Shown here: piece by piece, positions 12,397-33,024 of the stretch | Position numbering within the stretch: the stretch's first letter is position 1 | Layout of the letters: each line of letters begins with the position of its first letter | DNA from: Polycladidibacter stylochi | Lineage (GTDB): Bacteria; Pseudomonadota; Alphaproteobacteria; Rhizobiales; Stappiaceae | Direction: 5' to 3' | DNA: 64,000 nucleotides | Assembly: GCF_001562055.1 (NCBI RefSeq) | Contig: NZ_LLWE01000032.1 | Span: forward strand, 1-64,000 | Notes under the pieces: model-generated | Told to the model about the DNA's origin: nothing | The model's input: the letters and a program-made list of their open reading frames with translations, nothing else | Database searches by the model: none | Position numbers and translations under genes: made by a program

Positions 12397-12400
12397 AGAA

Positions 12401-13024: not shown

Positions 13025-13052
13025 TTTTTTTCCTTGGAATCTCAGGTTGGTT

Positions 13053-14117: not shown

Positions 14118-14211
14118 TGTACTGGTCCCTATTGTTCTTATTGTTGCTGCAGGCTTTATTGAGCGATTGTTTGCCACCCCCCACCTCATCAGCGGGAGGT
14201 GACAGCCTTCA

Positions 14212-16624: not shown

Positions 16625-16740
16625 AGGTCCAACTCCAAGGAGATATGCCCAGAATGCCCGGCACAAGGGTATGAAACTGAAAGCCGTTATTCGCCGGTAC
16701 TTCAAATCAGATAGAAGCACCGGCACTTGATAGTGTTTAC

Positions 16741-17631: not shown

Positions 17632-17642
17632 GTTTTTATTCC

Positions 17643-18419
17643 TTACTTTATGCGTGTAAACCAGCTCAAACCATCTGTTGTACTGTTTGCCGGATTGTAT
17701 TCAGCCCCAACCCAGCCCTTGTAGCCAATGTCGTCTAGGAATCTGAACAAGAAGTCGTAGTTTAACTCACCGGTTCCGGGCTCATGTCGGCCCGGATTAT
17801 CGGCTATCTGGATATGCGCAATGCTATCCAAATTATCGCTAATCGTGCGGGCAACGTTACCTTCCATAATTTGCATATGGTAGATATCAAACTGGAAGCG
17901 GATGTTTTTGCTACCGGTTGCTTCAATAATTTTTAGCACTTGTGCTGAATTGTTCACGCAAAATCCTGGCATGTCTTGCGTATTGCAAGCTTCGAGCAAG
18001 AGTAAAATCCCCTCACCTTCAAGCTTATCCGCCGCAAAGCGCAGATTTTCTACAAGTACTTTTTCAGCAGTTTCTTGACTAACCGTTTCCGGTACCAAGC
18101 CAGAAAGACAATTTACTTGCTTACAGCCCAAAGTCTTGGCGTATTCGATAGCTTTGTCAACACCAACACGGAATTCTTCAACCCGATCAGGCAAACAAGC
18201 AATGCCCCGCTCGCCACTAGCAAAATCACCAGCAGGTAAATTAAACAGAACCTGCTGCAAACCATTGCTATCAAGCTCTTTTTTAATGTCTTCCATTGGG
18301 AAGTCATAGGGGAATAGATATTCGACAGCTTTAAAACCTGCATTTGCCGCAGCTTCAAAGCGCTGCATAAAGTCTACCTCTTTAAAAAGCATAGACAAAT
18401 TGGCCGTAAATCTAGGCAT
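17643..18419 (-). CDS. hyi: Hydroxypyruvate isomerase
   Basis: 258 residues, the same length as E. coli Hyi, with a xylose-isomerase-like TIM barrel. The start is ATG 18419 (MPRFTANLSMLFKE), with GAGGTGC just upstream. Metal-binding acidic residues appear in LLLEACN, FQFDIYHMQIMEG and GAEYNP; HIQIADNPGRHEPGTGE is a family block. It interconverts hydroxypyruvate and tartronate semialdehyde. It is 11 bases downstream of gcl and upstream of glxR. Confidence 0.93.
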   Translation of the reverse strand: MPRFTANLSMLFKEVDFMQRFEAAANAGFKAVEYLFPYDFPMEDIKKELDSNGLQQVLFNLPAGDFASGERGIACLPDRVEEFRVGVDKAIEYAKTLGCKQVNCLSGLVPETVSQETAEKVLVENLRFAADKLEGEGILLLLEACNTQDMPGFCVNNSAQVLKIIEATGSKNIRFQFDIYHMQIMEGNVARTISDNLDSIAHIQIADNPGRHEPGTGELNYDFLFRFLDDIGYKGWVGAEYNPANSTTDGLSWFTRIK

Positions 18420-18430
18420 TTGCACCTCTA

Positions 18431-20179
18431 TTATTCTTGTATTTCCAGATCCAGTTCGCCGCCCCATTCATTGATGGCGTTAATATCTGGGCCCATAGCA
18501 ACTTCTGTTTTCCGTTCGACAACAAACTCAACAACAACCGGAACGCGGAACTCATCGCGTAATTTCCGTGCTTTCTCGAGAGCACCTTTGATTTCATTGG
18601 GATCAAAAACTCGAATTGCTTTACAGCCCAAGCCCTCGATGACTGATTTAAAATCAACGCCGTAACCACCCGTCGGACTGTTGATGTTTTCAAAGCCTAA
18701 ATCGAGGCAATAGTCGATATTGAAAGCCTTTTGCGACATTCGAATGAGCCCGAGATAGGCATTGTTAATCAGCACGTGGATATAGGGGATGTTGAACTGT
18801 GCCGCCACTGCCAGCTCTTCGAGTAAGAATTGGAAATCATAGTCCCCTGAAACGGCAACGACTTCTTTTTCCGGTTCAGCTTTGGCAGCACCTATGGCAG
18901 CCGGCATTGTCCAGCCCAGTGGTCCAGCTTGAGCGGCATTAATCCAATGACGCGGCTTTTGAACATGTAGCATTTGCGCCGCTTGAATTTGTGTATTGCC
19001 GATTGTGGCAACATAACGAGTTTCGCCGTCAAAGACTCCATTCATCTCCTTGAAAACACGTTGTTGCTTAATAGGCGTTTGATCATAATCATTACGACGT
19101 TTCATGGTGCGCTTGCGCATATTGCATTCACCAACCCAGGCACTTCGATCCTTAAGCTGTCCGCTCTCTTTCATTTCCTTGGCGATTTGTACAAATAGCT
19201 CAAGAGCTGCTTTCGCATCTGATGCAATGCCAAGGTCAGGTGAGAAAATGCGGCCAATTTGGGTCGGCTCTACATCTACATGAATGAACTTGCGACCTTT
19301 CTGGTATGTTTCCAGCTTGCCCGTATGGCGGTTGGCAAAGCGGTTGCCGATACCAAATATGAAATCACTTTCAAGGAAATTCGCATTACCGTAACGGGTG
19401 TTGGTCTGCATACCCATTTGGCCAATCATAAGCTCATGCGCATCTGGAATCGCGCCCCAACCGCGAAGTGTTGGTATAACTGGCACACCTGTAATCTCGG
19501 CAAACTCTACCAGTAAATCCGCAGCACCGGCTGAAATAACCCCGCCACCAGTAACAATTATAGGCTTGTCTGCCTCATTTAGCATTTCCAGCGCTTTAGC
19601 AGCTTGTGCCCGTGTTGCCTTGGGTTTGGAAGGTTCTAGCGGTTCATAGAGATCGATATCGAATTCAATTTCTTGCATTTGCACATCAAGCGGCAAATCG
19701 AGCAAAACAGGTCCGGGGCGATTGGAACGCATTTCATAAAATGCCCGCTGGAAGTAACCCGGCATTTGAGCGCCATCACGAATAGTTTTTGCAAGTTTGG
19801 CTACCGGTTTAGCAATCGATTCAATATCTACAGCCTGGAAGTCTTCCTTATCCAACTTAGCAACAGGGGCCTGACCAGTTAGGCAAAGAATTGGAATAGA
19901 ATCAGCAGCTGCGGCATATAAACCTGTAAGCATATCAGTGCCAGCAGGACCAGATGTACCTACGCAAAGGCCAATATTGCCTTGTTTGGCACGTGTATAC
20001 CCCTCGGCCATGTGGCTGGCACCTTCCACATGACGGCAAATAATATGCTCAATACCACCAAGTTTTTCCATAGCTGCGTAAAATGGATTGATGGCTGCGC
20101 CAGGTACACCAAAAGCAACACTAACGCCTTCTTTTTTAAGAATTTGCACAGCTGCTTCAATAGCTCTTAGTTTTGGCAT
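18431..20179 (-). CDS. gcl: Glyoxylate carboligase
   Basis: 582 residues of the thiamine-diphosphate acetolactate-synthase family. It joins two glyoxylate molecules to tartronate semialdehyde plus CO2. The hallmark is Val51 in CRHVEGASH, where almost all other ThDP enzymes have Glu; Gcl is known for this. The cofactor motif reads [15 protein letters not shown] with the closing NN. Start set at ATG 20179, since GGAGAA precedes it and Val then falls at 51 as in E. coli. It opens the gcl-hyi-glxR-glycerate kinase operon under a divergent GntR regulator. Confidence 0.95.
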
Positions 20180-20557
20180 GAATTTCTCCATTATTATTTA
20201 TATATTGAAAAGACATTCTCTCAATTACTTTTCTTGTTCGTTTTTATTAGCAATGAGTGCTTCTGTATTCTCACCAATAGATTGGTCTTACCTAGAGAAA
20301 GAATCGACCAACCTCACTTGGTATGTATGAATGTATCATCTAACATTTCAGATGTAAGATAGCGTAAGTACCTATAGGTAAATTAAAGACTCTCATTTAT
20401 GATGATTAATGAATATGCAGTTGAAAAGTGTTTTGAAAAATGTTCAGTACACTGAAATCACTCTAAAATTATCAAATGGCACCGCAAAACGGCAACCAAT
20501 CATCTCCCAAGCAATGTGTTTGTTATTAAGAGTTGAGAAGACAAAAAAGAGAAAACA
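20180..20557. promoter_or_regulatory. Divergent promoter region gcl / gntR
   Basis: About 378 AT-rich bases without a gene. It carries a perfect 12-bp palindrome TACCTATAGGTA at 20369-20380 and an inverted pair TTGGTC (20282-20287) and GACCAA (20306-20311). Either could be the operator of the neighbouring GntR protein. Neither matches a site I can name. Confidence 0.5.
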
Positions 20558-21223: not shown

Positions 21224-22090
21224 TTAAGGAAAGCCTGTTGCCCTGACATCCGACAGGGTACGCTTCATTTCAATAATCTTGTCCTGATGCTCGTCTGTTA
21301 GTCGCATACTCACAAGTGTTGAAATGATATCTATTACAATCATTGCCGCTATTCGGCTAATGGTTGGTGTGTACAGATCAGTATTTTCAAGTGTTTCAAT
21401 TACAATAGGGCAATCGCAGCGCTGCGCTAAAGGCTTGTCTAAACTACCTGAAAGCCCGATGACTTTCGCGCCTTGCATTTGCGCAACACGGCAGGCCTGC
21501 AAAATTTCACGGGTTGCACCCGTATTCGATATTGCAATTACCACATCGCCAGGGCGCAACATCGCCGCCGTAACTATCATTTGGTGGCTATCTGTTACAG
21601 CCCCACATGGTTTGCCAAATAGCGGAAACTTTTGTTGGGCATCAATCGCCGAAATACCCGAAGCACCTAGGCCAAAAAACTGTATTTGTTGCGCTGTCGT
21701 TATAATGTCGACGGCGCTTAGAATTTGCTCTTCTGACAGCTTTGATCGAACCCGGTTTAAGCTGTGCATGTTAAAGTCAAAAATTTTAGCGATAACTTCA
21801 TCAGGACCGTCATCTGCAGAAATAGCACTATGCGAGGCAGTGCTTGCGTAAGCAAGTGATTTTGCAATCTCGATTTTTAACTCTTGAAAACCACTATAAC
21901 CTACAGATACACAAAACCTGATAACCGAAGGTTCGCTTACTTCTGCTTTCGCGGCGATGTCAGAGAGTCGTAGATTCGTAACTTCCTCTGGATTTGAAAG
22001 CACAAAATGCGCAACTTTTTCTTGCGAACGCTTTAAGCTTGGCAGCTTTTGTTCGATAATATCAAGTATGTTTTCGCTATTTTCGTTCAT
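21224..22090 (-). CDS. RpiR/MurR family transcriptional regulator
   Basis: 288 residues with an N-terminal RpiR helix-turn-helix (LRLSDIAAKAEVSEPSVIRF) and a C-terminal SIS sugar-phosphate domain (FFGLGASGISAIDAQQKF, VVIAISNTGATREILQACR, VIGLSG). Such regulators sense phosphosugars. It is the last gene of the minus operon that begins with the cupin isomerase, nine bases after the lactonase gene, so it likely controls that operon and the divergent TRAP operon through feedback by a phosphorylated intermediate. Confidence 0.9.
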   Translation of the reverse strand: MNENSENILDIIEQKLPSLKRSQEKVAHFVLSNPEEVTNLRLSDIAAKAEVSEPSVIRFCVSVGYSGFQELKIEIAKSLAYASTASHSAISADDGPDEVIAKIFDFNMHSLNRVRSKLSEEQILSAVDIITTAQQIQFFGLGASGISAIDAQQKFPLFGKPCGAVTDSHQMIVTAAMLRPGDVVIAISNTGATREILQACRVAQMQGAKVIGLSGSLDKPLAQRCDCPIVIETLENTDLYTPTISRIAAMIVIDIISTLVSMRLTDEHQDKIIEMKRTLSDVRATGFP

Positions 22091-22099
22091 TGGTCACAC

Positions 22100-22918
22100 T
22101 TAAACTATTTCGATGCAATCTAATGCAATCGGCACGAGAGGGGAAGGCAAATCTATTGTCAAAGACGCGTATTCCTGCTTGAGTAATGCAAAATCTTCCT
22201 CCGTTGCACTATTAAATTCAAACATTCCGAAATGATGCGCAATTAAATGCGATATCTCACAATGAAGGCACAATTTTACAGCTTCTGATGCACTCATGTT
22301 TCCCGGCACACCGTTATCAGCTCTTTCTTTGTCCCTGCCATTCACTGGCAAAAACGCAATATCAGGCTTTACCCGTGAGAGCTCATTGTATAGCTCTGGG
22401 TCAGCAACACTATCACCAGAATGATACAGACAAGTATTACCATCGGAAATTGCATATCCGAGATAATAATCCTGCCCCTTGTCGTTTTGCTTACGTACTT
22501 CATGATAGGAAGGCAAAACCGAAACCTCAAGCTTGCCAAACGTCAAAACATCTCCTGCACTAGCAAAATAAATTTTGGCGTCGCGTCCTATACGTTCGCG
22601 TGCTTTTTGTGCTTCAGCTGCCGGTACCACAAACGCAACATCATGATGTTGCTCTGCGATATGAGATAAGGTCTCGCCATCCATATGGTCTGTATGTGCA
22701 TGTGTTATGAGCACAACATCAGGACATGGTAAGTCTTGTGGCTTAACTGGTATGGGCATCATACGCTGGTGCGGAAACTTGGTACCTGCATATTTCACAG
22801 CCAAGCTATCACTCAAGTAAGGATCAATGAGCAATCGTGTCCCAGAAAAGTCGATCCAGAACCCTGCTTGTCCGCACCAATATGCTTGGTTTTTGTTTAT
22901 TTTCTGAGGAATTTTCAC
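22100..22918 (-). CDS. Metallo-beta-lactamase fold hydrolase (UlaG-like lactonase)
   Basis: 272 residues. The metal site is HAHTDHMDG near residue 73, with further ligands in HSGDSVADP and IAHHFGMFEF. The overall pattern (CGQAGFWIDFSGTRLLIDPYL at the start) matches the UlaG group, which opens L-ascorbate-6-phosphate lactone. A GTG start has AAGGTG six bases upstream and lies three bases after the dehydrogenase gene. In context it may hydrolyse a sugar lactone produced by one of the adjacent dehydrogenases. The substrate is inference. Confidence 0.82.
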   Translation of the reverse strand: MKIPQKINKNQAYWCGQAGFWIDFSGTRLLIDPYLSDSLAVKYAGTKFPHQRMMPIPVKPQDLPCPDVVLITHAHTDHMDGETLSHIAEQHHDVAFVVPAAEAQKARERIGRDAKIYFASAGDVLTFGKLEVSVLPSYHEVRKQNDKGQDYYLGYAISDGNTCLYHSGDSVADPELYNELSRVKPDIAFLPVNGRDKERADNGVPGNMSASEAVKLCLHCEISHLIAHHFGMFEFNSATEEDFALLKQEYASLTIDLPSPLVPIALDCIEIV

Positions 22919-22921
22919 GAT

Positions 22922-23854
22922 TTACACCTTACAGTCCTTGAGTAGGTTATCGACGCTCACCTGCGTCACTCGTTCCACGCTTTGCGCTGTAAATCCGCCG
23001 ATATGCGATGTGAGGATACACCTTTCATGGGCCAGCAATTCACTGGGCTGCGGCGGCTCGGTGTCGAACACATCGGTGGCATATGCAGCCACCCGTGCCT
23101 GGTTCATTGCCTTCAGCAGTTCATTTTGGTCGACAAGGCCGGCACGCGCGGTGTTCACGATTACCGCACCCGGTTTGAGTTGCTGCAAAACCTTGGCATC
23201 GAGAACCGGTTGGGCATTTTCAGGCAGTGGCATATGTAAGCTCAGCGCATCACATTCACGCAAAATCGGCTCGATCTGATCGTACTGCTCAAATGTACCG
23301 AACTGCTTGAGTTCTTCACCATCGCTATAAGGATCATAACCAATCACCCTTGCGTTGAGTTTCAAGAGCTTTTGCGCCACCAGCTTGCCAATAGCCCCCA
23401 GCCCCAACACCGCAACTGTAGATCCGGCGATTTCGCAGCCACGAATGCGCGGCCAGGCCCCATCGCGTATTCCCCGATCGCTTGCCGGAATATGGCGCAA
23501 TGCAGCCAGCATTAATGCCAGTGTCAACTCGGCCACACCATTTGCATTGGAACCAACAGCGCGTTCGACCCGAATGTTGTTTTCTTCCAAAAGCTTGATG
23601 GGCAGGTTATCAACACCAACCCCGTTACGCGAGATCACTTGCAAGGATTTCGCGGCATGGATAACTTTTGGCGATACCGGCTCCACACCGGCAATCCACC
23701 CCCAGCAGTCAGGCACCGCCGCAATCAACTCCGCCTCCGAAGGGATTTTGCCAGGTGTTGGTATCACCAGTTCAAAGCCCTCGTCTTCGAGCTTGCGAAG
23801 GGCGGGCGGTACGCTCTGTGTCATTGAGCGCGGTGTCACAAGAATACGTTTCAT
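22922..23854 (-). CDS. D-2-hydroxyacid dehydrogenase (phosphoglycerate dehydrogenase-like)
   Basis: 310 residues, the short form without an ACT domain. VLGLGAIGKLVAQKLLKL binds NAD; the catalytic Arg is in NTARAGLVDQ, Glu in DVFDTEPPQ and His in TSHIGGFTAQS. It would oxidise or reduce a 2-hydroxy acid with NAD. It overlaps the AroE-like gene by four bases (ATGA), so they are translationally coupled. Because it is embedded in a sugar-acid operon, serine biosynthesis is not its likely job. Confidence 0.85.
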   Translation of the reverse strand: MKRILVTPRSMTQSVPPALRKLEDEGFELVIPTPGKIPSEAELIAAVPDCWGWIAGVEPVSPKVIHAAKSLQVISRNGVGVDNLPIKLLEENNIRVERAVGSNANGVAELTLALMLAALRHIPASDRGIRDGAWPRIRGCEIAGSTVAVLGLGAIGKLVAQKLLKLNARVIGYDPYSDGEELKQFGTFEQYDQIEPILRECDALSLHMPLPENAQPVLDAKVLQQLKPGAVIVNTARAGLVDQNELLKAMNQARVAAYATDVFDTEPPQPSELLAHERCILTSHIGGFTAQSVERVTQVSVDNLLKDCKV

Positions 23855-24804
23855 GATGCACGCCCACTTGCTTTTTTCGCAATATTGGAGAGTTCGTCAA
23901 ACTGCGGCCCGGATGTGGGAATTGCCACATCAAACACCTCGGCAATCACTTGTGTCCAACCGTGCAAGAAGTAACTCCAGCCGTTTTCAACCTGCAACCC
24001 TTTCGCCTCTTTTTGCCCGTTGGCCTGATCAAGGAACACAAGATCGCCGCGGTAATTCAACTCCCATACAACCGCCGCTTCAGGCAATTGCACAGCATCG
24101 GTGAAGGGCGATCCGGGTGCATCCTTACCCAGGCCGGTGGCATTGATAATGAGCGAACCTGAAGGTAGGGCGGCGGCAATCCGGTCGTTATCGCCAGGGG
24201 TCGGTGCCAGACAATAGGACACGGGAATATCGATCCCCATTTCCTCATGGATTGCCTTGATATGATCCAACCGCTTTTGCGAGCGGTTCGAGACAATGAT
24301 TTGCGCCGGGCGGTTGTTTGCAGCCATGGCTTTAATCGCATGCCAGGTAATGGCAATTGTTGAGCCACCAGCCCCCATGGAAAGTAAATGGCCCGCAGTA
24401 TTGGCAAAGTGGTTTGGCGCTAAAAAGCCATCTATTGCCAACCCCGAGGAAATGGGGTCTTTGGCATGGGCAATCAGCTTGCCATCGCGCTTGGAGATAC
24501 ACGATACCTCACTCATCAAGGTCGCATGGGGATCGATTTCATCGAACATATCCTTACATGCTTCGAACAAGTCCAGCTTGTGGGTGGTTACCAGTGCCCC
24601 CATGGAATGGGGATCATCACGAATAAAAGCAACCGCTTCGCGATAGCGCTGCGGGTCATCATGAAGGGCAAAGTCCATCCCGCGAATAAGCGCATTGTCA
24701 AGCCCGAGATATTCGGCCCAAGCCGGGAATACCTTCATGATCGAGCTTTGCGCCGTGGTCACGCCGATAAAGTAAAGTGTTGGCTGTTGTGCCGGACTAT
24801 ACAT
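23851..24804 (-). CDS. AroE-like (shikimate dehydrogenase fold) oxidoreductase
   Basis: 317 residues. The N-terminal substrate domain keeps the catalytic Lys in ALVTTHKLDLF and an Asp in AHAKDPISSGL, and the Rossmann part shows SMGAGGSTIAITWHAI and VSNRSQKRLDHI, then INATGLGKDAPGSP. It is longer and more divergent than biosynthetic AroE and carries an extended C-terminus. The start ATG 24804 has GGGAGG seven bases upstream and overlaps the aldolase gene by eight bases. In this operon it probably oxidises a polyol, sugar acid or cyclic hydroxy compound. Quinate or shikimate are possible but unproven. Confidence 0.78.
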   Translation of the reverse strand: MYSPAQQPTLYFIGVTTAQSSIMKVFPAWAEYLGLDNALIRGMDFALHDDPQRYREAVAFIRDDPHSMGALVTTHKLDLFEACKDMFDEIDPHATLMSEVSCISKRDGKLIAHAKDPISSGLAIDGFLAPNHFANTAGHLLSMGAGGSTIAITWHAIKAMAANNRPAQIIVSNRSQKRLDHIKAIHEEMGIDIPVSYCLAPTPGDNDRIAAALPSGSLIINATGLGKDAPGSPFTDAVQLPEAAVVWELNYRGDLVFLDQANGQKEAKGLQVENGWSYFLHGWTQVIAEVFDVAIPTSGPQFDELSNIAKKASGRAS

Positions 24805-25453
24805 TTTTTTCCTCCCGTAACGCACGCAGGCACGCAACAGCATCACGTGCATTTTGCGTAATTCTCGCCCAATTGCCTTCAGCAATATCCTGGCGCGTTG
24901 CAATCCAGGTGCCGCCAATACCGCGTACGTTGGGCATGCTCAGCCACTGAGCCATGTTATCCGGGTTCACCCCACCGGTAGGGTTAAAGCCCACATCCAA
25001 ATGCGCAAATGGTGCCGAAATGCTCTTCAGCATCGCAGGCCCACCCAGCTGCTCTGAAGGAAAGAATTTCAAAAACCTGCAACCATGGCGCAAAGCGATC
25101 TGCAAATCTGAAGGCGTGGCAACCCCGGGCGCATAAGGCAAGTTGGCGCGCTTGGCGGCCTCAATCAACGTTGCATCCGTGCCAGGCGCCAACGCAAACT
25201 CGGCCCCCGCCTTGGCGGCACTTTGAACCTGTTCTTCACTGATAACGGTGCCAGCCCCCACCAGGAAATCCGCACGTTTGCTGGCGATTTGCGCAATAGC
25301 CTCTTGCGCTGCCTGTGTGCGATAGGTGATCTCGGCAACCGGTAAGCCGCCCTCAGCCAAAGCATCGGCAAGATCGAGGGCCTTGTCCGCTGTATCGATG
25401 GCAACAACAGGTATCACGCCAATACTGGCAAGTCGGTCAAATACATTCATCAC
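24797..25453 (-). CDS. KDPG/KHG-type class I aldolase
   Basis: 218 residues of the Eda family. The general-acid Glu41 is in PVAEITYRT, and the Schiff-base Lys129 is in CRFLKFFPSEQLGG; GAGTVIS and FNPTGGVNPDN complete the barrel. These enzymes split 2-keto-3-deoxy sugar acids (or their phosphates) into pyruvate and an aldehyde. It is directly after the cupin isomerase gene. GTG 25453 is chosen because AAGGGC precedes it; ATG 25450 is an alternative. A dehydratase in the divergent operon could supply its 2-keto-3-deoxy substrate. Confidence 0.9.
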   Translation of the reverse strand: MMNVFDRLASIGVIPVVAIDTADKALDLADALAEGGLPVAEITYRTQAAQEAIAQIASKRADFLVGAGTVISEEQVQSAAKAGAEFALAPGTDATLIEAAKRANLPYAPGVATPSDLQIALRHGCRFLKFFPSEQLGGPAMLKSISAPFAHLDVGFNPTGGVNPDNMAQWLSMPNVRGIGGTWIATRQDIAEGNWARITQNARDAVACLRALREEKNV

Positions 25454-25455
25454 AT

Positions 25456-26076
25456 TTAGCCCTTGGTTGCGTAAATTGCTTTTATCTGCTCAGCCCCACG
25501 TGGCTGATAAGAAGCGTTGGGGACCTCTTTCCAGCCTGTGCCATCGGCAACAATTCTGGAGCGCATGCCAAAGGTCTGGGCAATAACCCCATAGTCCTGC
25601 CCGGAATCGGAAGGGTAGGTAAAGCTCATCACAAAGGGTGTTGCGCCGGTATTTACGGAGCGGTGAATCCAAAACGGTGGCACATAGCAAAGTACCCGTG
25701 GCTTGATTTCGATAACGCGGGTCTCGCCCTCCGGCGATTCCATCAGCATGACGCCCTCGCCGCTTTCGCCATAGTAGATTTCAGGGCGGTTGGCGATTGC
25801 ATGAATATGGCCGCGGGTTAAAAAGTACTCATCGCCAATACGCCCGGGCTGCATGTAGGTCACACCAAAGATGAGATCACCGCGCTGTTGCTCCGGGTGC
25901 TGGTCTTGCACTTGATATACAATACGATCGCCTTGCTCTTGCACAGCCTGCTCGAAGGCTTCGCTATCGGCGTAGAGCTGTGTCAGGTCACGCAGTTTTT
26001 TTTGATAGGTTCGCCCGCAATTCCCCAATTTCCCGTTTATTGGGTCAACCAAATGTGCGGAGGGTTCTTTGATCAC
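25456..26076 (-). CDS. Cupin-type phosphoglucose isomerase family protein
   Basis: 206 residues of the archaeal/bacterial cupin PGI family (PF06560). The metal site reads TRGHIHAIANRPEIYYGESG with His, His and Glu ligands, and the third His lies in VPPFWIHRSVNTG. Such enzymes interconvert aldose and ketose phosphates with Fe or Zn. GTG start with GGGAG six bases upstream. It is first in the minus operon and is most likely an isomerase for the pathway sugar phosphate rather than the housekeeping glycolytic enzyme. Confidence 0.85.
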   Translation of the reverse strand: MIKEPSAHLVDPINGKLGNCGRTYQKKLRDLTQLYADSEAFEQAVQEQGDRIVYQVQDQHPEQQRGDLIFGVTYMQPGRIGDEYFLTRGHIHAIANRPEIYYGESGEGVMLMESPEGETRVIEIKPRVLCYVPPFWIHRSVNTGATPFVMSFTYPSDSGQDYGVIAQTFGMRSRIVADGTGWKEVPNASYQPRGAEQIKAIYATKG

Positions 26077-26217
26077 AACTAACTCCCAAAATTAAGTTTT
26101 ACTAACATTTATTCGTTCATAAACATGATTTTTCGCAGAGTCAATCAAAAAAATGATTGCAAACTCTCAATAAATTGATACTTTGATAATAACAAAAACA
26201 AAAAATGGGAGACCAAT
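26077..26217. promoter_or_regulatory. Divergent promoter between isomerase operon and TRAP operon
   Basis: 141 AT-rich bases feed two divergent operons. CAATCA (26142-26147) and TGATTG (26154-26159) form a perfect inverted repeat around a run of A, a plausible operator for the RpiR regulator encoded at the end of the leftward operon. The shared promoter suggests joint control. Confidence 0.55.
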
Positions 26218-26763
26218 ATGAACACTATCCTGCGGGGAGTTTGCGGGGCCGTGTCTCTAATCCTATTCACTTTAATGATCGCAATGGTAATCATCGTGAA
26301 TAGTGTCGTTGTTACTCGCTATGCCTTCTCGTTTTCACCTAGTTGGACTGAAGAAATCACTCGCTACGCTATGGTATGGATGGTCATGCTTGGCGCCGCG
26401 GTCATTGGTTTGTTTGAAGACCATATTGGCTTGTACTTGCTTCGATCAAAGATCAGCCCGCGTCTATACATTCTATTACAGAATATCATTAGGTTGTTGT
26501 CTGCAGCTGTTGCCGCACTCATTGCCTGGACCGGCTTCAAGTTTGCCTTTTCATTGGCAAACATTTTTGCGCCAGGTAGCCAAATTTCAATGATGATTCC
26601 GACACTAGCAGTACCTGTAGGGGCTACCTTGCTTTCTGTTTTTAGTCTCGTTCTCGTTTGTAATGATCTGCGCCTGATAATGGGTATGAAACGTATGCAC
26701 TTACCAGAACAGGCCCACTTCATGGACGGTTCATTCAACGCTGAGCCTGATGAAGGAAATTAA
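26218..26763 (+). CDS. TRAP transporter small membrane subunit DctQ
   Basis: 181 residues with four membrane segments. VVTRYAFSFSPSWTEEITRY followed by WMVMLGAAVIGLFEDHIGL is the DctQ pattern (W-x-E-E-x-x-R). It pairs with the large subunit encoded four bases downstream to form a secondary, Na+-driven uptake system for organic acids. GGGAG precedes the ATG. No gene for the periplasmic DctP binding protein is present anywhere in this window, which is unusual for a TRAP operon. Confidence 0.9.
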   Translation: MNTILRGVCGAVSLILFTLMIAMVIIVNSVVVTRYAFSFSPSWTEEITRYAMVWMVMLGAAVIGLFEDHIGLYLLRSKISPRLYILLQNIIRLLSAAVAALIAWTGFKFAFSLANIFAPGSQISMMIPTLAVPVGATLLSVFSLVLVCNDLRLIMGMKRMHLPEQAHFMDGSFNAEPDEGN

Positions 26764-26766
26764 AAT

Positions 26767-28056
26767 ATGTCTCTTGAAATTGTTCTAGTACTGTTCTGTG
26801 GCATGGTCCTTGTGGGGGTACCAATCGGCTTTGCTATGGTTTCTATTTCGGCTGGCTACTTCCTTATGGGACCGATACCGACTTTTATTAACTTGATACC
26901 ACAAAAGTTGTTCGAGGGTATCGATGTTATCGTGCTCACGGCAATTCCATTCTTTTTATTAGCTGGAGAGCTGATGAACAGATCAGGTATGGCTAAGCGA
27001 TTAATGCACTTCGCCAATCTAATTGTCGGGCGTGTGCGTGGCGGCTTTGCCTATGTCAACGTTTTAGCTAGTTTGCTGTTTTCGGGCTTAACTGGTGTGG
27101 CAGTTGGTGACATTGCTGCATTGGGTAAAGTTGAAATCAAAGCAATGGAGCAAGCCGGTTATCCGCGTGCTTTTGCTGCTGCAGTAACAGCCTCTTCATC
27201 ACTTGTAGGCACCATCATCCCTCCAAGCGGGTTGATTATCCTTTATTGTGCCATCATGAACGTCTCGGTCGGGGCAATGTTCCTTGCAGCATTAATACCC
27301 GGTGTCCTAATGGCAGTTGCTGATATGATTGTTATTGGCATTCAGGCAAAAAAACGTGGCTTTCCCAAATCTGAAGTAAAAAGAACCCTGCCTGAAATCG
27401 TTACGGGTACAAAAGACGCTTCACTCGCTCTGTTCATGCCGTTTTTGCTAATTGGCGGTATTGTTGGCGGCATCATGACACCAACAGAAGCTGCTGCGGT
27501 ATCTGTGCTTTACGCACTGGGAATCAGTTTATTCGTTTACCGTGCACTTTCTTTGAAAGAGATATACCGAATACTGGTCTCTTCCTCCTATGATGCCGCG
27601 CGCTTGTTGTTCATGATCGGTGCCGCGTTGACCATGACATGGATTTTCGCACTTGAAGACCTTGCAGGCCAAGTAAGCATGCTGTTTTCCCATGTGGAAA
27701 GCTCGCCCTTACTGACAATTCTCATGATCAATGCTGTTTTCCTTATTCTCGGCATGTTCATGGACTCATCAATTGCACTGATCCTGTTTGCACCAGTGGT
27801 AGCGCCCGTTGCTTACGGTGTTGGTGTAAGCCCGACACAACTTGGTATCATGCTGATCATTAATGTTGTTGTTGGTCTGGCTACGCCACCAATCGGCAAT
27901 GTCTTGTTTGCAATATGTGGTGTTGTGCAACTGCGCTTTAGCGATTTGGTTCGCGAGCTTTTCCCATTCATCGCAATCAAGTTTGTTTTGTTGTTGCTGA
28001 TCGGAATGATCCCTTTCCTAACAACCGCAATACCAAGCTACTTCGGTTTCAGTTAA
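26767..28056 (+). CDS. TRAP transporter large permease DctM
   Basis: 429 residues with about twelve hydrophobic segments. Family blocks are VPIGFAMVSISAGYFLMG, AIPFFLLAGELMNRSGMAKR, SGLTGVAVGDIAALG, ASSSLVGTIIPPSGLIILY and VVVGLATPPIGNVLFAICG. It is the translocating subunit. Gene order DctQ, DctM, dehydratase implies the imported substrate is the sugar acid handled by the dehydratase or a precursor. The DctP partner must be encoded elsewhere. Confidence 0.93.
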   Translation: MSLEIVLVLFCGMVLVGVPIGFAMVSISAGYFLMGPIPTFINLIPQKLFEGIDVIVLTAIPFFLLAGELMNRSGMAKRLMHFANLIVGRVRGGFAYVNVLASLLFSGLTGVAVGDIAALGKVEIKAMEQAGYPRAFAAAVTASSSLVGTIIPPSGLIILYCAIMNVSVGAMFLAALIPGVLMAVADMIVIGIQAKKRGFPKSEVKRTLPEIVTGTKDASLALFMPFLLIGGIVGGIMTPTEAAAVSVLYALGISLFVYRALSLKEIYRILVSSSYDAARLLFMIGAALTMTWIFALEDLAGQVSMLFSHVESSPLLTILMINAVFLILGMFMDSSIALILFAPVVAPVAYGVGVSPTQLGIMLIINVVVGLATPPIGNVLFAICGVVQLRFSDLVRELFPFIAIKFVLLLLIGMIPFLTTAIPSYFGFS

Positions 28057-28083
28057 TCGCATCCAATTAAAAAAGGTAAGAAA

Positions 28084-29298
28084 ATGAAGATCGTATCCGC
28101 TGAAATATCCATCCTCGACTTACAATTTTCACAGGAGTTTGCCGAAACTCAGGGCTCTTGGCATCCCGTTCTCTTAAAATTGGTCACCGACGAAGGATTG
28201 GTAGGTCTTGGGGAAGCTGGCTTGGCATATGGCGTTGGCCATAATGGCGCTGTCGGAATGCTAAAAGACTTTGTCGAAACATTTATCATCGGGGCAAATC
28301 CATTTGATCGCGAAGTCATCTGGAATAAAATGCAACGATTTTCTTTCTGGGGGGGCTCTTGTGGACCTGTTGTAAACGCTTGTATGAGCGCTATTGATAT
28401 AGCCCTTTGGGATATCGCTGGTAAGGCACTTAACCAGCCAATCTGGCAAATGCTTGGTGGCCGCGTACAAGATGAGCTTCGTTGCTATGCCAGCCAATTA
28501 CAGTTTGGTTGGGATAAAGAAGGCGTAACATGGTACAACCTTAAAGATCCTGAGGAATACGCCAATGCTGCTATTGCAGCCATCAATGATGGTTACACAG
28601 CGGTGAAAGTCGATCCAATCATGATCGATGAACAAGGCACGATTGAAAACCCAAACAAGCTCAAAGGCGCTCTCGATAAGAAAATCGTCAACCGTGCAGT
28701 TACACGTGTTGCAGCTATTCGTGAAGCTGTTGGTCCTGATACGGACATTATTCTTGAGCTACACTCGCTAACATCTTTGACCGGTGGCCAAAAGCTGGCC
28801 GAAGCATGTGCGCAGTTCGATCTGTTCATGGTTGAAGAGGCTGTCAACTATAACTCCTCCGGCCCTGCAGAAACTTTGAAAAAACGTATGCCAACGACAC
28901 CAATGGCCGGTGGCGAAAGGGTGTTCACACGCTGGCAGTACAAAACATACCTGGAAACCGCTTGTTTTGACATGATCCAGCCAGACTTCTGTCTTGCCGG
29001 CGGTATTACTGAGGGCAAAAAAATCTGCGACATGGCGCATACTTATGAAGTTGGTGTGCAAGGGCATGTTTGCGGTTCACCAATATCTGCAGCTGCAGCA
29101 ATTCACGTTTCAACGGCCATCCCGAATTTTGAAATCTACGAACACCACACCAACGCCAATACCCGCGCTAACAGGAATATTTGCATACAAGACCAGCAGC
29201 CAGAAAACGGCCTGCTCGTTGCAACAGATGCACCTGGTCTTGGCATTGACCTCAACGACGAATTCGTAGCGAAAAACGGACAAACAATCAGGGTTTAA
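28084..29298 (+). CDS. Enolase-superfamily acid-sugar dehydratase (mandelate racemase/mannonate dehydratase-like)
   Basis: 404 residues. A capping domain (1-130) with ALWDIAGKALNQPIWQMLGG precedes a TIM barrel. By eye the metal ligands are Glu225 in ILELHS, Glu251 in MVEEAVN and Glu278 in AGGERV. Lys175 is in TAVKVDP. Asp301 in IQPDFCLAGG and His328 in QGHVCG resemble the Asp-His dyad of mandelate racemase. The E-x-H at 225-227 recalls the D-x-H of mannonate/gluconate dehydratases. It likely removes water from a sugar acid to give a 2-keto-3-deoxy acid. The substrate is unknown. Confidence 0.87.
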   Translation: MKIVSAEISILDLQFSQEFAETQGSWHPVLLKLVTDEGLVGLGEAGLAYGVGHNGAVGMLKDFVETFIIGANPFDREVIWNKMQRFSFWGGSCGPVVNACMSAIDIALWDIAGKALNQPIWQMLGGRVQDELRCYASQLQFGWDKEGVTWYNLKDPEEYANAAIAAINDGYTAVKVDPIMIDEQGTIENPNKLKGALDKKIVNRAVTRVAAIREAVGPDTDIILELHSLTSLTGGQKLAEACAQFDLFMVEEAVNYNSSGPAETLKKRMPTTPMAGGERVFTRWQYKTYLETACFDMIQPDFCLAGGITEGKKICDMAHTYEVGVQGHVCGSPISAAAAIHVSTAIPNFEIYEHHTNANTRANRNICIQDQQPENGLLVATDAPGLGIDLNDEFVAKNGQTIRV

Positions 29299-29305
29299 GC
29301 GAACA

Positions 29306-30124
29306 ATGAGCCTTTCTAATACCATAAACGAAAGCTTTCGACTTGTCGCGCAGCTTCAGGTGACAGACCTTTCGAAAGCTGCCTGGACATTAACAGACCG
29401 ATTTGGCTTCAAATCTGAATCTGGTTACGAAGATGTACGCAACATACCTGAGGATACTCGTACCCTCCGAATGCGCCGCCTTAACCAGGTCATTGAACTG
29501 TCGAAAACCGATCAAGCAATATCTCAGGGAAATAGTACATTTGACCACCTTTCTCTGAAAACCAACAATGTTGATGCTGCTGTGATGGCATTTCGGGCAA
29601 AATGGGCAAAGCTTGACCCAATGAACACGCCAGATGGTGCTGTAGACTTGCCAACATTCTGGAGCCAAGGTGTACGCATTGCATTCATTCTCGGGCCAGA
29701 AGATGCCCGCTTTGAATTATGTGAAAACCTTGCACCCAAAGAAGACCCCTGTTCTTTGCAATTTGTAAACCTTGGTGGACACGACCACTTTGGTGTGCGC
29801 TGCCGTGACGTTGAAGAAGCCGCGCAATTCTATGCACAATTCGGCTTTGAAACCGCTCATGAAACGGAAATCCAAACACCTGACGGCGCAATTGAAATTC
29901 GTTTTGTCCGTTGCGGGAATTATTTGCTGGAGATTGCATCAACACCGGAAACACGTGCCAAATCACACGCGTTTTCTACCCACCCGGCGTGGTCAAAAAT
30001 CATTATCGAAACGAACGATCCCGGAGCCAAATCGCAAGAGTACAAAGGCCCTAATGGCGAACGCGTTGAGGTGCGTGCCTCTATCCCAAGTGCAGCCTTT
30101 AAATTTGATAGGGAGTTAGCATAA
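29306..30124 (+). CDS. VOC (glyoxalase/dioxygenase superfamily) protein, four modules
   Basis: 272 residues made of four beta-alpha-beta3 modules forming two vicinal-oxygen-chelate domains. Candidate metal ligands are His in FDHLSLKT with Glu in RFELCEN, and His in DHFGVRC with Glu in YLLEIAST. The superfamily includes extradiol dioxygenases, HPPD-like enzymes, isomerases and epimerases. In a sugar-acid operon an isomerase or epimerase is possible, but no function can be assigned. Its TAA overlaps the next ATG by one base. Confidence 0.8.
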   Translation: MSLSNTINESFRLVAQLQVTDLSKAAWTLTDRFGFKSESGYEDVRNIPEDTRTLRMRRLNQVIELSKTDQAISQGNSTFDHLSLKTNNVDAAVMAFRAKWAKLDPMNTPDGAVDLPTFWSQGVRIAFILGPEDARFELCENLAPKEDPCSLQFVNLGGHDHFGVRCRDVEEAAQFYAQFGFETAHETEIQTPDGAIEIRFVRCGNYLLEIASTPETRAKSHAFSTHPAWSKIIIETNDPGAKSQEYKGPNGERVEVRASIPSAAFKFDRELA

Positions 30125-30849
30125 TGATTGGAAGCTATGTAACTGACCCGCGCGTTCAAGCCTTTGCCAGCATTTTCCATTTTGGTGTTCTTGGTGAAGA
30201 AAAAAGACTGGAAGATGTCCTTGTTGAAGCACGTAGACTGCGCAAATCAGGGCTGAATATTGAAGCCTTCGATTGTGAAGCATGCATGGTAGAAGCCGTT
30301 CGAGACACATTGGGTGGCTATGCAAAAATACATGTTCCGATTGGCTACCCTGCTGGTAATGCGCTGGTTAAACAAAAGCTTGTTCAACTTGAACAGCTTT
30401 TAAAACTAGAAATCGATGATAGCTGTTACTGTCTTGACTATTCAAATCTGATTGATGGCAATTGGGATGCGGTCACAGCTGAAACCCGCAAAGTCATGGA
30501 TATCTGCGAAGGGCGACTGCCAATAGCTATGGTTATTCAAGCGACACTACTTGATGACCGCCAAATTGTTGCTGCATGCGAGGCAATTTTGGCAGGCGGA
30601 GCAAACCGCGTGAAAATGAATACCGGCTATGGCTGGGGCACATCAGCAGAAGACGTTGACTTGGTGCACCGCCATTTTAACAGCCGTATAGATATTCACC
30701 CCTCAGGGAATGTACGCAATCTGGCACAAGTCGAACATTTTCTGTCGCGCGGTATTGGCATAGTCCATTCTGCTTCGGTCTTCGAGATCATTGAAGCCTA
30801 CGCACAACGCCTGGGCCTTATCACTGACGAAAAGGGAGCGGTCTCATGA
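30124..30849 (+). CDS. DeoC/FbaB-type class I aldolase with Schiff-base lysine
   Basis: 241 residues, TIM-barrel aldolase related to deoxyribose-phosphate aldolase. Lys164 in NRVKMNTGYGWGTS matches the DERA Schiff-base Lys167 block VKTSTGFG. By eye, the two other DERA catalytic residues are replaced: Asp102 aligns with Cys101 and Lys201 with His192 (IDIHPSGNVRN). This points to a different substrate or mechanism from DERA. It overlaps the next gene, a related protein, by ATGA. It may cleave a phosphorylated sugar made by the kinase downstream. Confidence 0.83.
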   Translation: MIGSYVTDPRVQAFASIFHFGVLGEEKRLEDVLVEARRLRKSGLNIEAFDCEACMVEAVRDTLGGYAKIHVPIGYPAGNALVKQKLVQLEQLLKLEIDDSCYCLDYSNLIDGNWDAVTAETRKVMDICEGRLPIAMVIQATLLDDRQIVAACEAILAGGANRVKMNTGYGWGTSAEDVDLVHRHFNSRIDIHPSGNVRNLAQVEHFLSRGIGIVHSASVFEIIEAYAQRLGLITDEKGAVS

Positions 30850-31502
30850 TTTCACCTAATAAAATCATCGCTGCCAGCTTACACTTAGAACCCAATACAG
30901 CTGCCATTGTACGCGATGTTCATCGAGCCGAAAAACTGGGCTTAAAACAGCTATTGCTGAACGAGAACATGGTTCAGCTTGCAATGGATGAGGTTAAGAG
31001 AGCCGACTTTTCTTTGTCTGTCAGCGGCATTGTTGGCTACCCCATAGGACAGTGGGGCTGGTCTGCCAAAAAGGTAGCCGTTGAGGAGCTTGCAAAGATA
31101 CAAAACGGTCCTGCCTGTATCATGCACGCAGTTGGTCCCTGGTTAGATGAAACACCAGCTTCAGCCGAAGAGTTTGACGCACTCGCTTCCTTGACCGAAG
31201 AAGTATGGCTACTGACTTCATTAGCTGCAATTCCCGCAGAACGGGTTGAAAAGCTTGCCAACGATATTGCCCGTGCAGGCACAAAACTGCTCATTCTATC
31301 AAATGGTGTGGCTGCCTCTGGCTTACCATTACCTGACGAGAAACAGATCGCGTTAGTTAAAAAATACGCTAATGGCCGCTTTGAAATAGCAGCTATGGCC
31401 CCACCAGGCACACCAGCCACCGAAATTAACAACTGGCTACATGCGGGCGCAGATAAAGTTGTTTGCTCGGACTTTTGGTCATTGACATGTGAAGAGGAGT
31501 AA
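30846..31502 (+). CDS. DeoC-like protein lacking the Schiff-base lysine
   Basis: 218 residues, weakly similar to its upstream neighbour: same barrel order, with GIVGYPIGQWG aligning to IGYPAG and LLILSNGVAASG aligning to the VKxSTG block. The lysine position is Ile150 here, so it cannot form the usual imine at that place. Conserved WSAKKVAVEE (Lys75, Lys76) follows the glycine turn. It could be a non-catalytic partner subunit of the upstream aldolase, or an aldolase/isomerase using another residue. The four-base overlap argues for a fixed-ratio partnership. Confidence 0.7.
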   Translation: MISPNKIIAASLHLEPNTAAIVRDVHRAEKLGLKQLLLNENMVQLAMDEVKRADFSLSVSGIVGYPIGQWGWSAKKVAVEELAKIQNGPACIMHAVGPWLDETPASAEEFDALASLTEEVWLLTSLAAIPAERVEKLANDIARAGTKLLILSNGVAASGLPLPDEKQIALVKKYANGRFEIAAMAPPGTPATEINNWLHAGADKVVCSDFWSLTCEEE

Positions 31503-31506
31503 AGCC

Positions 31507-33024
31507 GTGGGCGAAGTTTTAATTGGTATTGATATTGGTACCACAGGTGTAAAAGTCGCTATGTTTGATACGGCAGGTGAGCTGGTTGCCTCTTCTTATC
31601 AGCCTCACGACACAAGCTATCCAGCGCCGGATCATGTAGAACAGCGTCCTCAAGACTGGATTGACGGCACTTTAGAGGGCCTGCGCAAAGTCTTGGCTCA
31701 AAGTGCTATCGACCCCAAATGTGTGGCAGGTATTTCTTTTTCGGGCCAGATGATGGGGCAAATCCCCATTGATTGTAACGGCAACCTTTTGGAAGAAAGT
31801 GTGCCTATTTGGGCAGACCAACGGGCAAAGGCTGAAGCCGCCCGTTTTCTGGAAGACTTTGGCGGCCATGAGGCCTATTACGATATTACCTACCAGGGGC
31901 ACCCAGTGCATATGACATCCATTTTTCGGATGATGTGGTATGCCAAAAACAAACCAGAGGTTTTTGCCAGGGCCGTTAAGTGGCTACACGCTAAAGAGTA
32001 TGTACTTTATTTCCTCACAGGTGCAATGGCCACCGAACCAACGGACCAATGTCTTGGCGGGGCCTTTGACCTTAAAGCAGGTAAGCACAGCGCACAAATT
32101 CTAAGTTGTGCCAACCTATCGGCCGATTTATTTCCCGATATGGTAGAAAGCACAGATGTTGCAGGAAAAATATCGCCAAAAATTGCCGAATTAACCGGCT
32201 TGCAAGCAGGTACTCCTGTTTCAGTTGGTGCTGGTGATGGCCCTTGCGCTGCAGCCGGTTCTGCCGCCATAGCTGAGGGCGATGCTTATTTCTATCTCGG
32301 TTCAGCCCTTTGGGGCGGTACAATTGAATCACAACCCTTTGGGGACTTCTCCTCAAGAATGATTTGTTATCGCCACCTCATCCCGGGCCTATACCACAGC
32401 CAGTATGTTAGTTTTACAGGTGCCATAGGTCAGCAATGGTTCGTTGAAAATTCCTACAGTGAGCTCGAAGGTGCCGACGCCTACGAGCGGGCACTTGCTG
32501 AAGTCGCGGCTATTGGTGATGAAGCCACTCCTATGTTTCTACCATTCTTGAGACCCGGGGGAGCGCCCCACCAACACGGCAATGCTTCCGGTGTGTTTTA
32601 TGGCTTGAGAAACGAACACAAACGTGCACATTTATACAAATCTGTTGTCATGGGCATCGCTCATTCATTGCAGGTATTGTACGATGACGTAACTCGAGTT
32701 ACCGGCAGAAAAATAGATGAATTGACCATTATTGGCGGTGGCGCACGCAATCCGCTATTGATGCAGTCAGTTTCAAGTGGCCTGGGTATTCCGGTTCAAT
32801 TGTTGGCGGACCAAGAAGCAAACTGCCTGGCCGCAGCTCTTTGTGCCGGTGTTGGTGTAGGCATTTGGCCAAACGCAAGCGCTGCAAAGGAAAGTGGCAT
32901 ATTCCAGCGTACCGCTCGTTACCAACCAGACCCCGCGAAAAAAGAAGAATTGGCACTTGCACAAGCCAAGTTCCGCACTTCTATCGAAATCGCCAAGCAA
33001 CTTTGGAGCCTTGAGCCAAATTGA
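31507..33024 (+). CDS. FGGY family carbohydrate kinase (xylulokinase-like)
   Basis: 505 residues. The N-terminal phosphate loop IGIDIGTTGVKVAMFD, ISFSGQMMGQIPID and WADQRAKAEA, and the C-terminal TIIGGGARNPLLMQ are FGGY hallmarks, closest to xylulokinase. It phosphorylates a ketose or polyol with ATP. GTG 31507 is preferred because GAGGAG is eight bases upstream; an upstream GTG at 31489 would sit inside the previous gene and over the ribosome site. It closes the TRAP operon, followed by a terminator. The phosphorylated product is a candidate inducer for the RpiR regulator. Confidence 0.9.
   Translation: MGEVLIGIDIGTTGVKVAMFDTAGELVASSYQPHDTSYPAPDHVEQRPQDWIDGTLEGLRKVLAQSAIDPKCVAGISFSGQMMGQIPIDCNGNLLEESVPIWADQRAKAEAARFLEDFGGHEAYYDITYQGHPVHMTSIFRMMWYAKNKPEVFARAVKWLHAKEYVLYFLTGAMATEPTDQCLGGAFDLKAGKHSAQILSCANLSADLFPDMVESTDVAGKISPKIAELTGLQAGTPVSVGAGDGPCAAAGSAAIAEGDAYFYLGSALWGGTIESQPFGDFSSRMICYRHLIPGLYHSQYVSFTGAIGQQWFVENSYSELEGADAYERALAEVAAIGDEATPMFLPFLRPGGAPHQHGNASGVFYGLRNEHKRAHLYKSVVMGIAHSLQVLYDDVTRVTGRKIDELTIIGGGARNPLLMQSVSSGLGIPVQLLADQEANCLAAALCAGVGVGIWPNASAAKESGIFQRTARYQPDPAKKEELALAQAKFRTSIEIAKQLWSLEPN

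Follow-up and report, generated by a model that had tools for sequence, protein, structure and literature searches.

A conserved six-gene module in Polycladidibacter stylochi and a possible Entner-Doudoroff-like route for rare sugars

Which catabolic route is encoded by two divergent operons of Polycladidibacter stylochi whose genes fit no named pathway is the question raised by positions 21224-33024 of a 64,000-nucleotide stretch of its genome (hereafter the window). A check of open reading frames revealed 13 genes in these operons, six on the minus strand and seven on the plus strand. A preliminary description had counted twelve genes, whereas its coordinates, the divergent arrangement and the 141 bp between the two starts were reproduced. 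Both operons are tightly packed, with gaps of -14 to +27 bp between adjacent genes, and a search of the 141-bp region for a regulator palindrome returned a single weak inverted repeat. Families were assigned with Pfam and NCBIfam models, whose scores are given in bits against the curated cut-off. The models agree with the earlier calls of an RpiR regulator, a metallo-beta-lactamase-fold (MBL) hydrolase, a 2-hydroxyacid dehydrogenase, a KDPG/KHG aldolase, a cupin isomerase, DctM, an enolase-superfamily dehydratase, a VOC protein and an FGGY kinase. The gene set looks like carbohydrate catabolism, and no described pathway with it was found in the open-licence literature by narrow multi-term queries (weak evidence of absence), in line with the earlier statement that no named pathway matches. 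The preliminary description was right about a real, unassigned gene set and wrong about which enzymes belong together.

The claim that we hold most firmly is that the minus-strand operon, judged by comparison of genomes, is a conserved catabolic unit, for which no described function was found. Loci were collected through the AroE-like gene, including the best 80 of 576 relatives, favouring close ones, from one genome per species and 19 further loci with larger stretches from sampling within the order. The 105 AroE loci, window included, were reduced to 82 usable ones by removing six duplicates (identical last 200 residues) and 17 with less than 5 kb on a side, and near-identical strains were kept (e.g., loci L010/L065 and L019/L020). 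One of the 82, L048, comes from a record titled Mycobacterium sp. KBS0706 and holds an Inquilinus-like copy of the cluster; a mislabelled assembly is suspected and nothing was drawn from it. Many soil and marine bacteria carry all or some of the six genes. The usable loci belong mostly to Alphaproteobacteria and Burkholderiales, and gene content and conservation were read from them directly: the cupin isomerase is present at 76, the MBL hydrolase at 73, the phosphoglycerate dehydrogenase-like (PGDH-like) gene at 62 and the aldolase (Eda) at 52, all four stand beside the AroE-like gene at 47, and the RpiR gene occurs at 75. Within 9 kb of the AroE-like gene, 77 of the 82 loci also have an FGGY kinase, and sugar ABC importers and polyol oxidoreductases of the short-chain dehydrogenase/reductase (SDR) or glycerol-dehydrogenase-like kind were seen, without a tally, as common neighbours. 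At L009/L033 (Rhizobium CC-CFT758), the isomerase frame upstream of eda is unannotated, was matched in two pieces and looks disrupted.

A protein search of plasmids found the AroE-like protein in 15 records, and the order isomerase-aldolase-AroE-PGDH-MBL-RpiR was present in all five opened first (two from Rhizobium and one each from Sinorhizobium, Marinovum and Lichenicola). This recurring six-gene order is not due to chance. In plasmids, the linkage is also independent of the AroE bait, because the MBL protein, used as query, recovers these 15 records above 47% identity and nothing else above 39% among the matches listed. Other MBL relatives stand outside the module, among sugar genes (RpiB, DhaK, DhaL and a sugar-phosphate isomerase) in Alicyclobacillus, beside a hexuronate transporter in Klebsiella, and in contexts that look unrelated in Deinococcus and Paenibacillus.

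The enzymes of the module look catalytically competent from their sequences, in which catalytic motifs are intact (motif counts are per matched stretch and include duplicate loci). The AroE-like dehydrogenase named earlier is present, but its start is at 24804 rather than 24918, as N-terminal homology indicates, and it reaches just 33.1 of the 200.2 bits required of AroE. A separate true AroE (226.9 bits) is encoded elsewhere in the genome, so the module copy is an extra gene. Its lysine motif VT[T/A]HK is kept in 102 of 105 copies, and both the aspartate motif AKDP and the NADP motif GAGG in 105 of 105. The HxHxDH motif of the MBL hydrolase was found in 90 of 90 stretches. The window PGDH-like protein has the catalytic R, E and H motifs, and a stricter pattern for the arginine matches 64 of 81 stretches, the window copy among them; with 310 residues against a 525-position model, this protein falls below the SerA equivalog cut-off (213.8 of 454 bits). 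The cupin isomerase aligns with solved phosphoglucose isomerases such as 1j3p and carries both metal-site motifs, for which a strict pattern matches 63 of 96 stretches overall. The module aldolase retains E45, R49, T73, K133, PTGG and the phosphate-site motifs of KDPG aldolases, with the Schiff-base motif in 62 of 63 copies and PTGG in 63 of 63. Several changes mark it, judging from the alignment, as a distinct KDPG-type subfamily: L48 is replaced by F in 61 of 62 copies and by Y in that of the window, T stands in place of S184 in 62 of 62, and the phosphate loop is preceded by an insertion of two residues. None of these changes occurs in the chromosomal aldolase of the same genome.

With these enzymes, the minus-strand operon may encode an oxidative phosphorylated sugar pathway that runs parallel to the Entner-Doudoroff pathway and is free of a dehydratase, a reading to which we give slightly less than even likelihood. 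An FGGY kinase would supply a ketohexose-6-phosphate, which the cupin isomerase would convert to an aldose-6-phosphate. The AroE-like enzyme would then use NADP to oxidize the aldose-6-phosphate to a 6-phospholactone, the UlaG-like hydrolase would open this lactone to a 6-phosphoaldonate, and the PGDH-like enzyme would oxidize its 2-hydroxyl group to give a 2-keto-6-phosphoaldonate, from which the KDPG-type aldolase would release glyceraldehyde-3-phosphate and hydroxypyruvate. A more specific version is somewhat more tentative still, namely an undescribed and widespread Entner-Doudoroff-like route by which Alphaproteobacteria and Burkholderiales would break down rare ketohexoses or hexitols, with an AroE-family 1-dehydrogenase, a 2-hydroxyacid dehydrogenase in place of the dehydratase, and hydroxypyruvate and glyceraldehyde-3-phosphate as predicted products. 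Each of these reactions is an inference, as are the choice of a rare ketohexose or hexitol as substrate and the connection of the module with the plus-strand operon.

In this organism, hydroxypyruvate would pass to an adjacent hydroxypyruvate isomerase, tartronate semialdehyde reductase and glycerate kinase, whose operon lies directly past the RpiR gene and a GntR gene. The hydroxypyruvate isomerase is single-copy in the genome, and glyoxylate carboligase, encoded in the same operon, scores above its cut-off in just three of 41 relatives, the organism itself counted. Beyond this operon, positions 9967-15297 of the window encode a glycerol dehydrogenase, DhaK, DhaL and a DhaM protein joined to an enzyme-I-like portion.

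Hints about the substrate come from several kinds of neighbours. Psicose-3-epimerase-like genes lie 5-9 kb from the AroE-like gene at six loci (L021, L031, L040, L042, L067 and L122) and, more weakly, at L045 and L066. An NCBIfam check made for L122 and for two such genes of L157 placed all three below the 300-bit cut-off (145 bits at L122). The epimerase search also weakly matches the window's own hydroxypyruvate isomerase (29 bits), which suggests that the two enzymes share a fold family. A divergent copy of the module in Shinella zoogloeoides is accompanied by two epimerase-like genes and by a gene resembling galactitol-1-phosphate 5-dehydrogenase (278 of 550 bits). For the rhizobial binding protein, the nearest solved structure is 4ry9, whose ligand we take to be D-talitol; for the Marinovum and Kaistia binding proteins, no solved relatives were found at E 1e-10 and 1e-20. 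A protein 68% identical to the rhizobial one belongs to a related polyol locus on pSymA of Sinorhizobium meliloti Ak57 (L152:1420-8624), which has an importer, an FGGY kinase, a galactitol-1-phosphate-dehydrogenase-like gene and a cupin isomerase and lacks the AroE-like gene. Taken together, the epimerase-like, galactitol-1-phosphate-dehydrogenase-like, kinase and binding-protein neighbours suggest that the substrates of the module are ketohexoses or hexitols.

The proposed order of steps also bears on how genes are lost. If housekeeping enzymes can cover later steps, nested loss from the end of the pathway is expected; the pathway order was fixed before losses were counted, at a time when the optional status of the aldolase, PGDH-like and MBL genes had already been seen. 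Scored for isomerase, MBL, PGDH-like and aldolase genes in this order, the 82 loci comprise 47 with all four, nine with the first three, 13 with the first two, five with the isomerase only and one with none, and seven break the nested order, three of them only by lacking the isomerase. The order isomerase, lactonase, 2-dehydrogenase and aldolase gives 17 nesting violations, the fewest among the 24 possible orders, whereas 5000 column shuffles, which ignore relatedness, average 38.9 violations and never fall below 27. An apparent gene replacement was observed as well. A GlcD-type FAD-linked oxidase (PF01565 and PF02913) lies within 6 kb at eight of the 14 loci that have the MBL gene and lack the PGDH-like gene and at three of the 59 that have both (Fisher p 2.8e-5, relatedness ignored). 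Since the GlcD family oxidizes 2-hydroxy acids, it looks like this oxidase stands in for the PGDH-like enzyme, one predicted 2-hydroxyacid oxidation being swapped for another.

However, a number of observations weigh against the proposed pathway. We know of no AroE-family enzyme that oxidizes the anomeric carbon of a sugar. All counted loci were found via AroE, six of the 82 lack the isomerase, and at L133 AroE is on its own. The cupin isomerase is also found in places without AroE: Sinorhizobium accounts for 47 of its 63 plasmid matches, and no module is present at the single pSymA locus opened. As for gene loss, the best nesting order is always identical to the order of gene frequency. Five of the eight oxidase-carrying loci without the PGDH-like gene are from Paraburkholderia/Caballeronia (the rest are from Paracoccus, Amaricoccus and Lichenibacterium), and no GlcD-type oxidase was found within 6 kb at six of the 14 PGDH-less loci (L046, L122, L123, L129, L131 and L132). 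Relatedness of the loci weakens both statistical arguments, and independent-pairs tests of loss order and oxidase replacement on the AroE tree had few well-supported branches or pairs. The window kinase is not the usual partner, the window cluster lacks a psicose epimerase and a polyol SDR, and the kinase of the divergent Shinella copy is of the true glycerol-kinase type (775 bits, cut-off 498). At other loci, the module does not have the hydroxypyruvate genes as neighbours (GckA 0, Gcl 0, GlxR 1 and Hyi 5 weak matches among 104 loci), and the glyoxylate carboligase operon has an ordinary role in glyoxylate use. Finally, pMaD8 of Marinovum algicola (L011:16428-21219) has a gene annotated as dihydroxyacid/phosphogluconate dehydratase and a full TRAP transporter adjoining an otherwise complete module, and thus a dehydratase step may exist in Marinovum; among the 104 loci scanned with that protein, an IlvD/Edd-type gene stands beside the module only there and at L058, also from Marinovum.

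The plus-strand dehydratase, VOC protein and DeoC-like pair cannot be placed in the proposed pathway. It is possible, although unlikely in our view, that two unrelated catabolic operons lie side by side, the plus strand encoding a TRAP-fed sugar-acid pathway (dehydratase, kinase and DeoC-like aldolase) and the minus-strand module serving another substrate or being idle without its own kinase. By sequence comparison, the plus-strand operon is not conserved with the module, and only its kinase-DeoC pair has counterparts: no close counterparts of the dehydratase, the VOC gene or the second DeoC-like gene were found beside the module at the loci opened or scanned. The protein encoded by that second gene has relatives in none of the plasmids and, in samples of 397 and of 385 genomes, only in its own genome. 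The window kinase shares 26% identity with the usual rhizobial partner, for which the best match in the whole genome is 29%. On the other side, the divergent layout on a shared 141 bp resembles that of loci in Kaistia, Bosea and Rhizobium at which the module is faced by a kinase and an importer, and in Kaistia and Bosea the kinase, DeoC and importer lie on one side and the module on the other. In addition, the window kinase shares 35% identity with a DeoC-adjoining kinase of Sinorhizobium, and an FGGY-DeoC pair of this type occurs at 12 of the 82 module loci (L010, L017, L027, L038, L043, L044, L060, L065, L072, L115, L119 and L126). The DeoC gene at these 12 always accompanies a Sinorhizobium-subtype kinase scoring at least 569 bits; other kinases of this subtype score at most 507 bits (484 for the window), and their loci lack that DeoC gene. 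The window pair therefore has counterparts at module loci. The co-conservation of the two operons raised in the preliminary description fails for the plus-strand operon as a whole but stands for the arrangement, given the FGGY kinase and, at fewer loci, the FGGY-DeoC pair near the module.

Two further explanations keep the module together and assign it other chemistry. The AroE family acts on shikimate and quinate, and the catalytic lysine and aspartate motifs are kept in nearly all copies, so the AroE-like enzyme could oxidize a hydroxyl on the ring of a non-sugar polyol, carbocyclic or otherwise, with the MBL hydrolase opening the ring and the remaining enzymes processing the open-chain acid. 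This explanation is quite improbable; linear sugars or polyols are indicated instead by the homologue of phosphoglucose isomerase, the FGGY kinases, the ABC importers of sugar type and the genes resembling psicose epimerase. Least probable of all is the scheme of the preliminary description, in which a 2-keto-3-deoxy acid made by the dehydratase is split into pyruvate and an aldehyde by the KDPG-type aldolase. Both gene types are indeed present in the window, the aldolase is a genuine family member, and an unrelated IlvD/Edd-type dehydratase stands beside the module in Marinovum. Nevertheless, in the opened records of Rhizobium, Sinorhizobium, Marinovum and Lichenicola, the module aldolase accompanies the isomerase, AroE-like, PGDH-like and MBL genes, and these records list no enolase-superfamily dehydratase. 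Homologues of the window dehydratase at module loci are distant (25-34%) and confined to L015, L027, L091, L126 and L120 (a duplicate of L027). Enolase-superfamily dehydratases act on unphosphorylated acids, whereas the module aldolase keeps its phosphate-site motifs.

Several features of the plus-strand operon and its replicon complete the picture (Table 1). The earlier TRAP importer stands as far as DctM and a weak DctQ are concerned, but DctP is missing from the cluster, which leaves the trio of DctP, DctQ and DctM incomplete there; the genome has 14 DctP matches. Contig C5, on which the window occupies positions 1-64000, carries a single DctM and a single DctP about 50 kb away. This distant DctP is likely the partner of the window DctM because each is the sole copy on C5; its gene (L158:5648-6640, about 77.6-78.6 kb on C5) adjoins a GntR-type gene. 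The nearest solved structures of the dehydratase (4e6m, 2gl5, 2o56 and 2ox4) are named merely putative dehydratase or putative mandelate racemase. Relatives of the dehydratase in plasmids of Sulfitobacter, Salmonella, Sporomusa, Sinorhizobium and Caballeronia have diverse transporters as neighbours (MFS, TTT, ABC and, beyond a transposase gene, TRAP), although the Caballeronia record carries no annotation. The VOC gene had no plasmid match at E 1e-5, and its structure prediction from one sequence was too poor for use (mean pLDDT 35.5). The DeoC pair reported earlier holds for its first member, although below the DeoC cut-off, whereas the second has no Pfam or NCBIfam match at E 0.001. Its weak hhalign alignment reads as lacking the Schiff-base lysine, and its structure prediction from one sequence was likewise too poor for use (mean pLDDT 49).

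C5 comprises 85,002 bases of a 3.68-Mb genome. Because RepA, RepB and RepC are all encoded on it (L158:8580-12578), each above its curated cut-off, this 85-kb contig is most likely a repABC plasmid, with the whole window plasmid-borne. The window also contains napC (33984-34637) and the urease alpha subunit gene (60786-62498), which are probably on the plasmid too. At E 1e-30, the AroE-like gene was detected in 20 of 397 genomes of the order, the organism's own included, and in none of 19 other sampled members of the same family; its absence from these 19 suggests that it was gained horizontally.

Table 1. Window positions of the two operons, the region between them and the neighbouring operon, with the evidence for each assignment
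Feature	Position	Strand	Evidence
Neighbouring operon, proposed hydroxypyruvate sink	15353..20191	-	NCBIfam: three of four above curated cut-offs
Glycerate 2-kinase homologue	15353..16726	-	below cut-off, 243.5 of 550 bits
Tartronate semialdehyde reductase	16741..17631	-	NCBIfam above cut-off
Hydroxypyruvate isomerase	17643..18467	-	NCBIfam above cut-off
Glyoxylate carboligase	18431..20191	-	NCBIfam above cut-off
RpiR/HexR-type regulator with SIS sugar-phosphate domain	21224..22090	-	PF01418, PF01380; HexR model 227 of 296 bits
MBL-fold hydrolase, UlaG/UPF0173 kind; proposed 6-phospho-lactonase	22100..22918	-	PF12706/PF13483
PGDH-like D-2-hydroxyacid dehydrogenase; proposed 6-phosphoaldonate 2-dehydrogenase	22922..23854	-	PF02826/PF00389
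AroE-like NADP dehydrogenase; proposed aldose-6-phosphate 1-dehydrogenase	23851..24804	-	52-69% identity to copies in 15 plasmid records
KDPG/KHG-type aldolase, divergent subfamily; proposed 2-keto-6-phosphoaldonate aldolase	24797..25453	-	TIGR01182 235.4 bits, cut-off 156.05
Cupin-type phosphoglucose-isomerase homologue; proposed ketose-6-phosphate/aldose-6-phosphate isomerase	25456..26076	-	PF06560 183.7 bits, cut-off 20.7
Divergent promoter region	26077..26217	.	141 bp, sequence
TRAP small permease DctQ	26218..26763	+	YiaM model 26.6 of 260 bits (weak)
TRAP large permease DctM	26767..28056	+	TIGR00786 373 bits, cut-off 268.45
Enolase-superfamily sugar-acid dehydratase	28084..29298	+	PF13378/PF02746
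VOC-superfamily protein	29306..30124	+	PF00903 41.5 bits, cut-off 20.6
DeoC-like aldolase, Schiff-base lysine kept	30124..30849	+	TIGR00126 71.4 of 117.3 bits (below DeoC cut-off); alignment
Possible DeoC-fold paralogue	30846..31502	+	hhalign probability 46% to DeoC profile
FGGY carbohydrate kinase; proposed supplier of ketose phosphate	31489..33024	+	XylB model 282.8 of 380.25 bits (below cut-off)

Among known systems, the Entner-Doudoroff pathway (Zwf, Pgl, Edd and Eda) is similar in having an isomerase, a 1-dehydrogenase, a lactonase, chemistry at C2, a KDPG-type aldolase that gives glyceraldehyde-3-phosphate, and a HexR-like regulator. The aldolase of the module is a KDPG/KHG aldolase by its family model (Table 1). 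In contrast, the module is predicted to use the AroE-like enzyme for Zwf, the MBL hydrolase for Pgl and the 2-hydroxyacid dehydrogenase for Edd, and to form hydroxypyruvate instead of pyruvate. Consistent with these differences, no Edd/IlvD was found among the six minus-strand genes by Pfam and NCBIfam, nor was a Zwf-family glucose-6-phosphate dehydrogenase, the dehydrogenases of this operon being the AroE-like and PGDH-like ones. The Ula pathway for L-ascorbate shares an MBL-fold phospho-lactonase, but the module hydrolase reaches only 34.9 of the 306 bits required of UlaG, and the other Ula enzymes (UlaD, UlaE and UlaF) are not among the families matched in the region. Galactonate and gluconate pathways with enolase-superfamily dehydratases are alike in that the plus strand of the window has a dehydratase and TRAP permeases; however, this dehydratase is below equivalog cut-offs (223.7 of 311 bits for galactonate dehydratase, and below for the other dehydratase equivalogs listed) and lies outside the conserved module. 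The catabolism of D-altritol and galactitol in Agrobacterium, reportedly worked out by Wichelecki and colleagues in 2015, is said to lead through an ABC importer, a polyol dehydrogenase and a kinase to ketohexose phosphates. It is alike in its importer, polyol dehydrogenase and kinase, and we know of no AroE-like/PGDH-like/MBL/aldolase module from that system.

If the proposed pathway is true, it would represent a new branch among the few central sugar-splitting routes and would extend the substrate range of the shikimate dehydrogenase family to a new kind of compound. It would also account for genes that bear the annotations 'shikimate dehydrogenase', 'phosphoglycerate dehydrogenase' and 'glucose-6-phosphate isomerase' across many genomes of rhizobia, roseobacters and the Burkholderia group.

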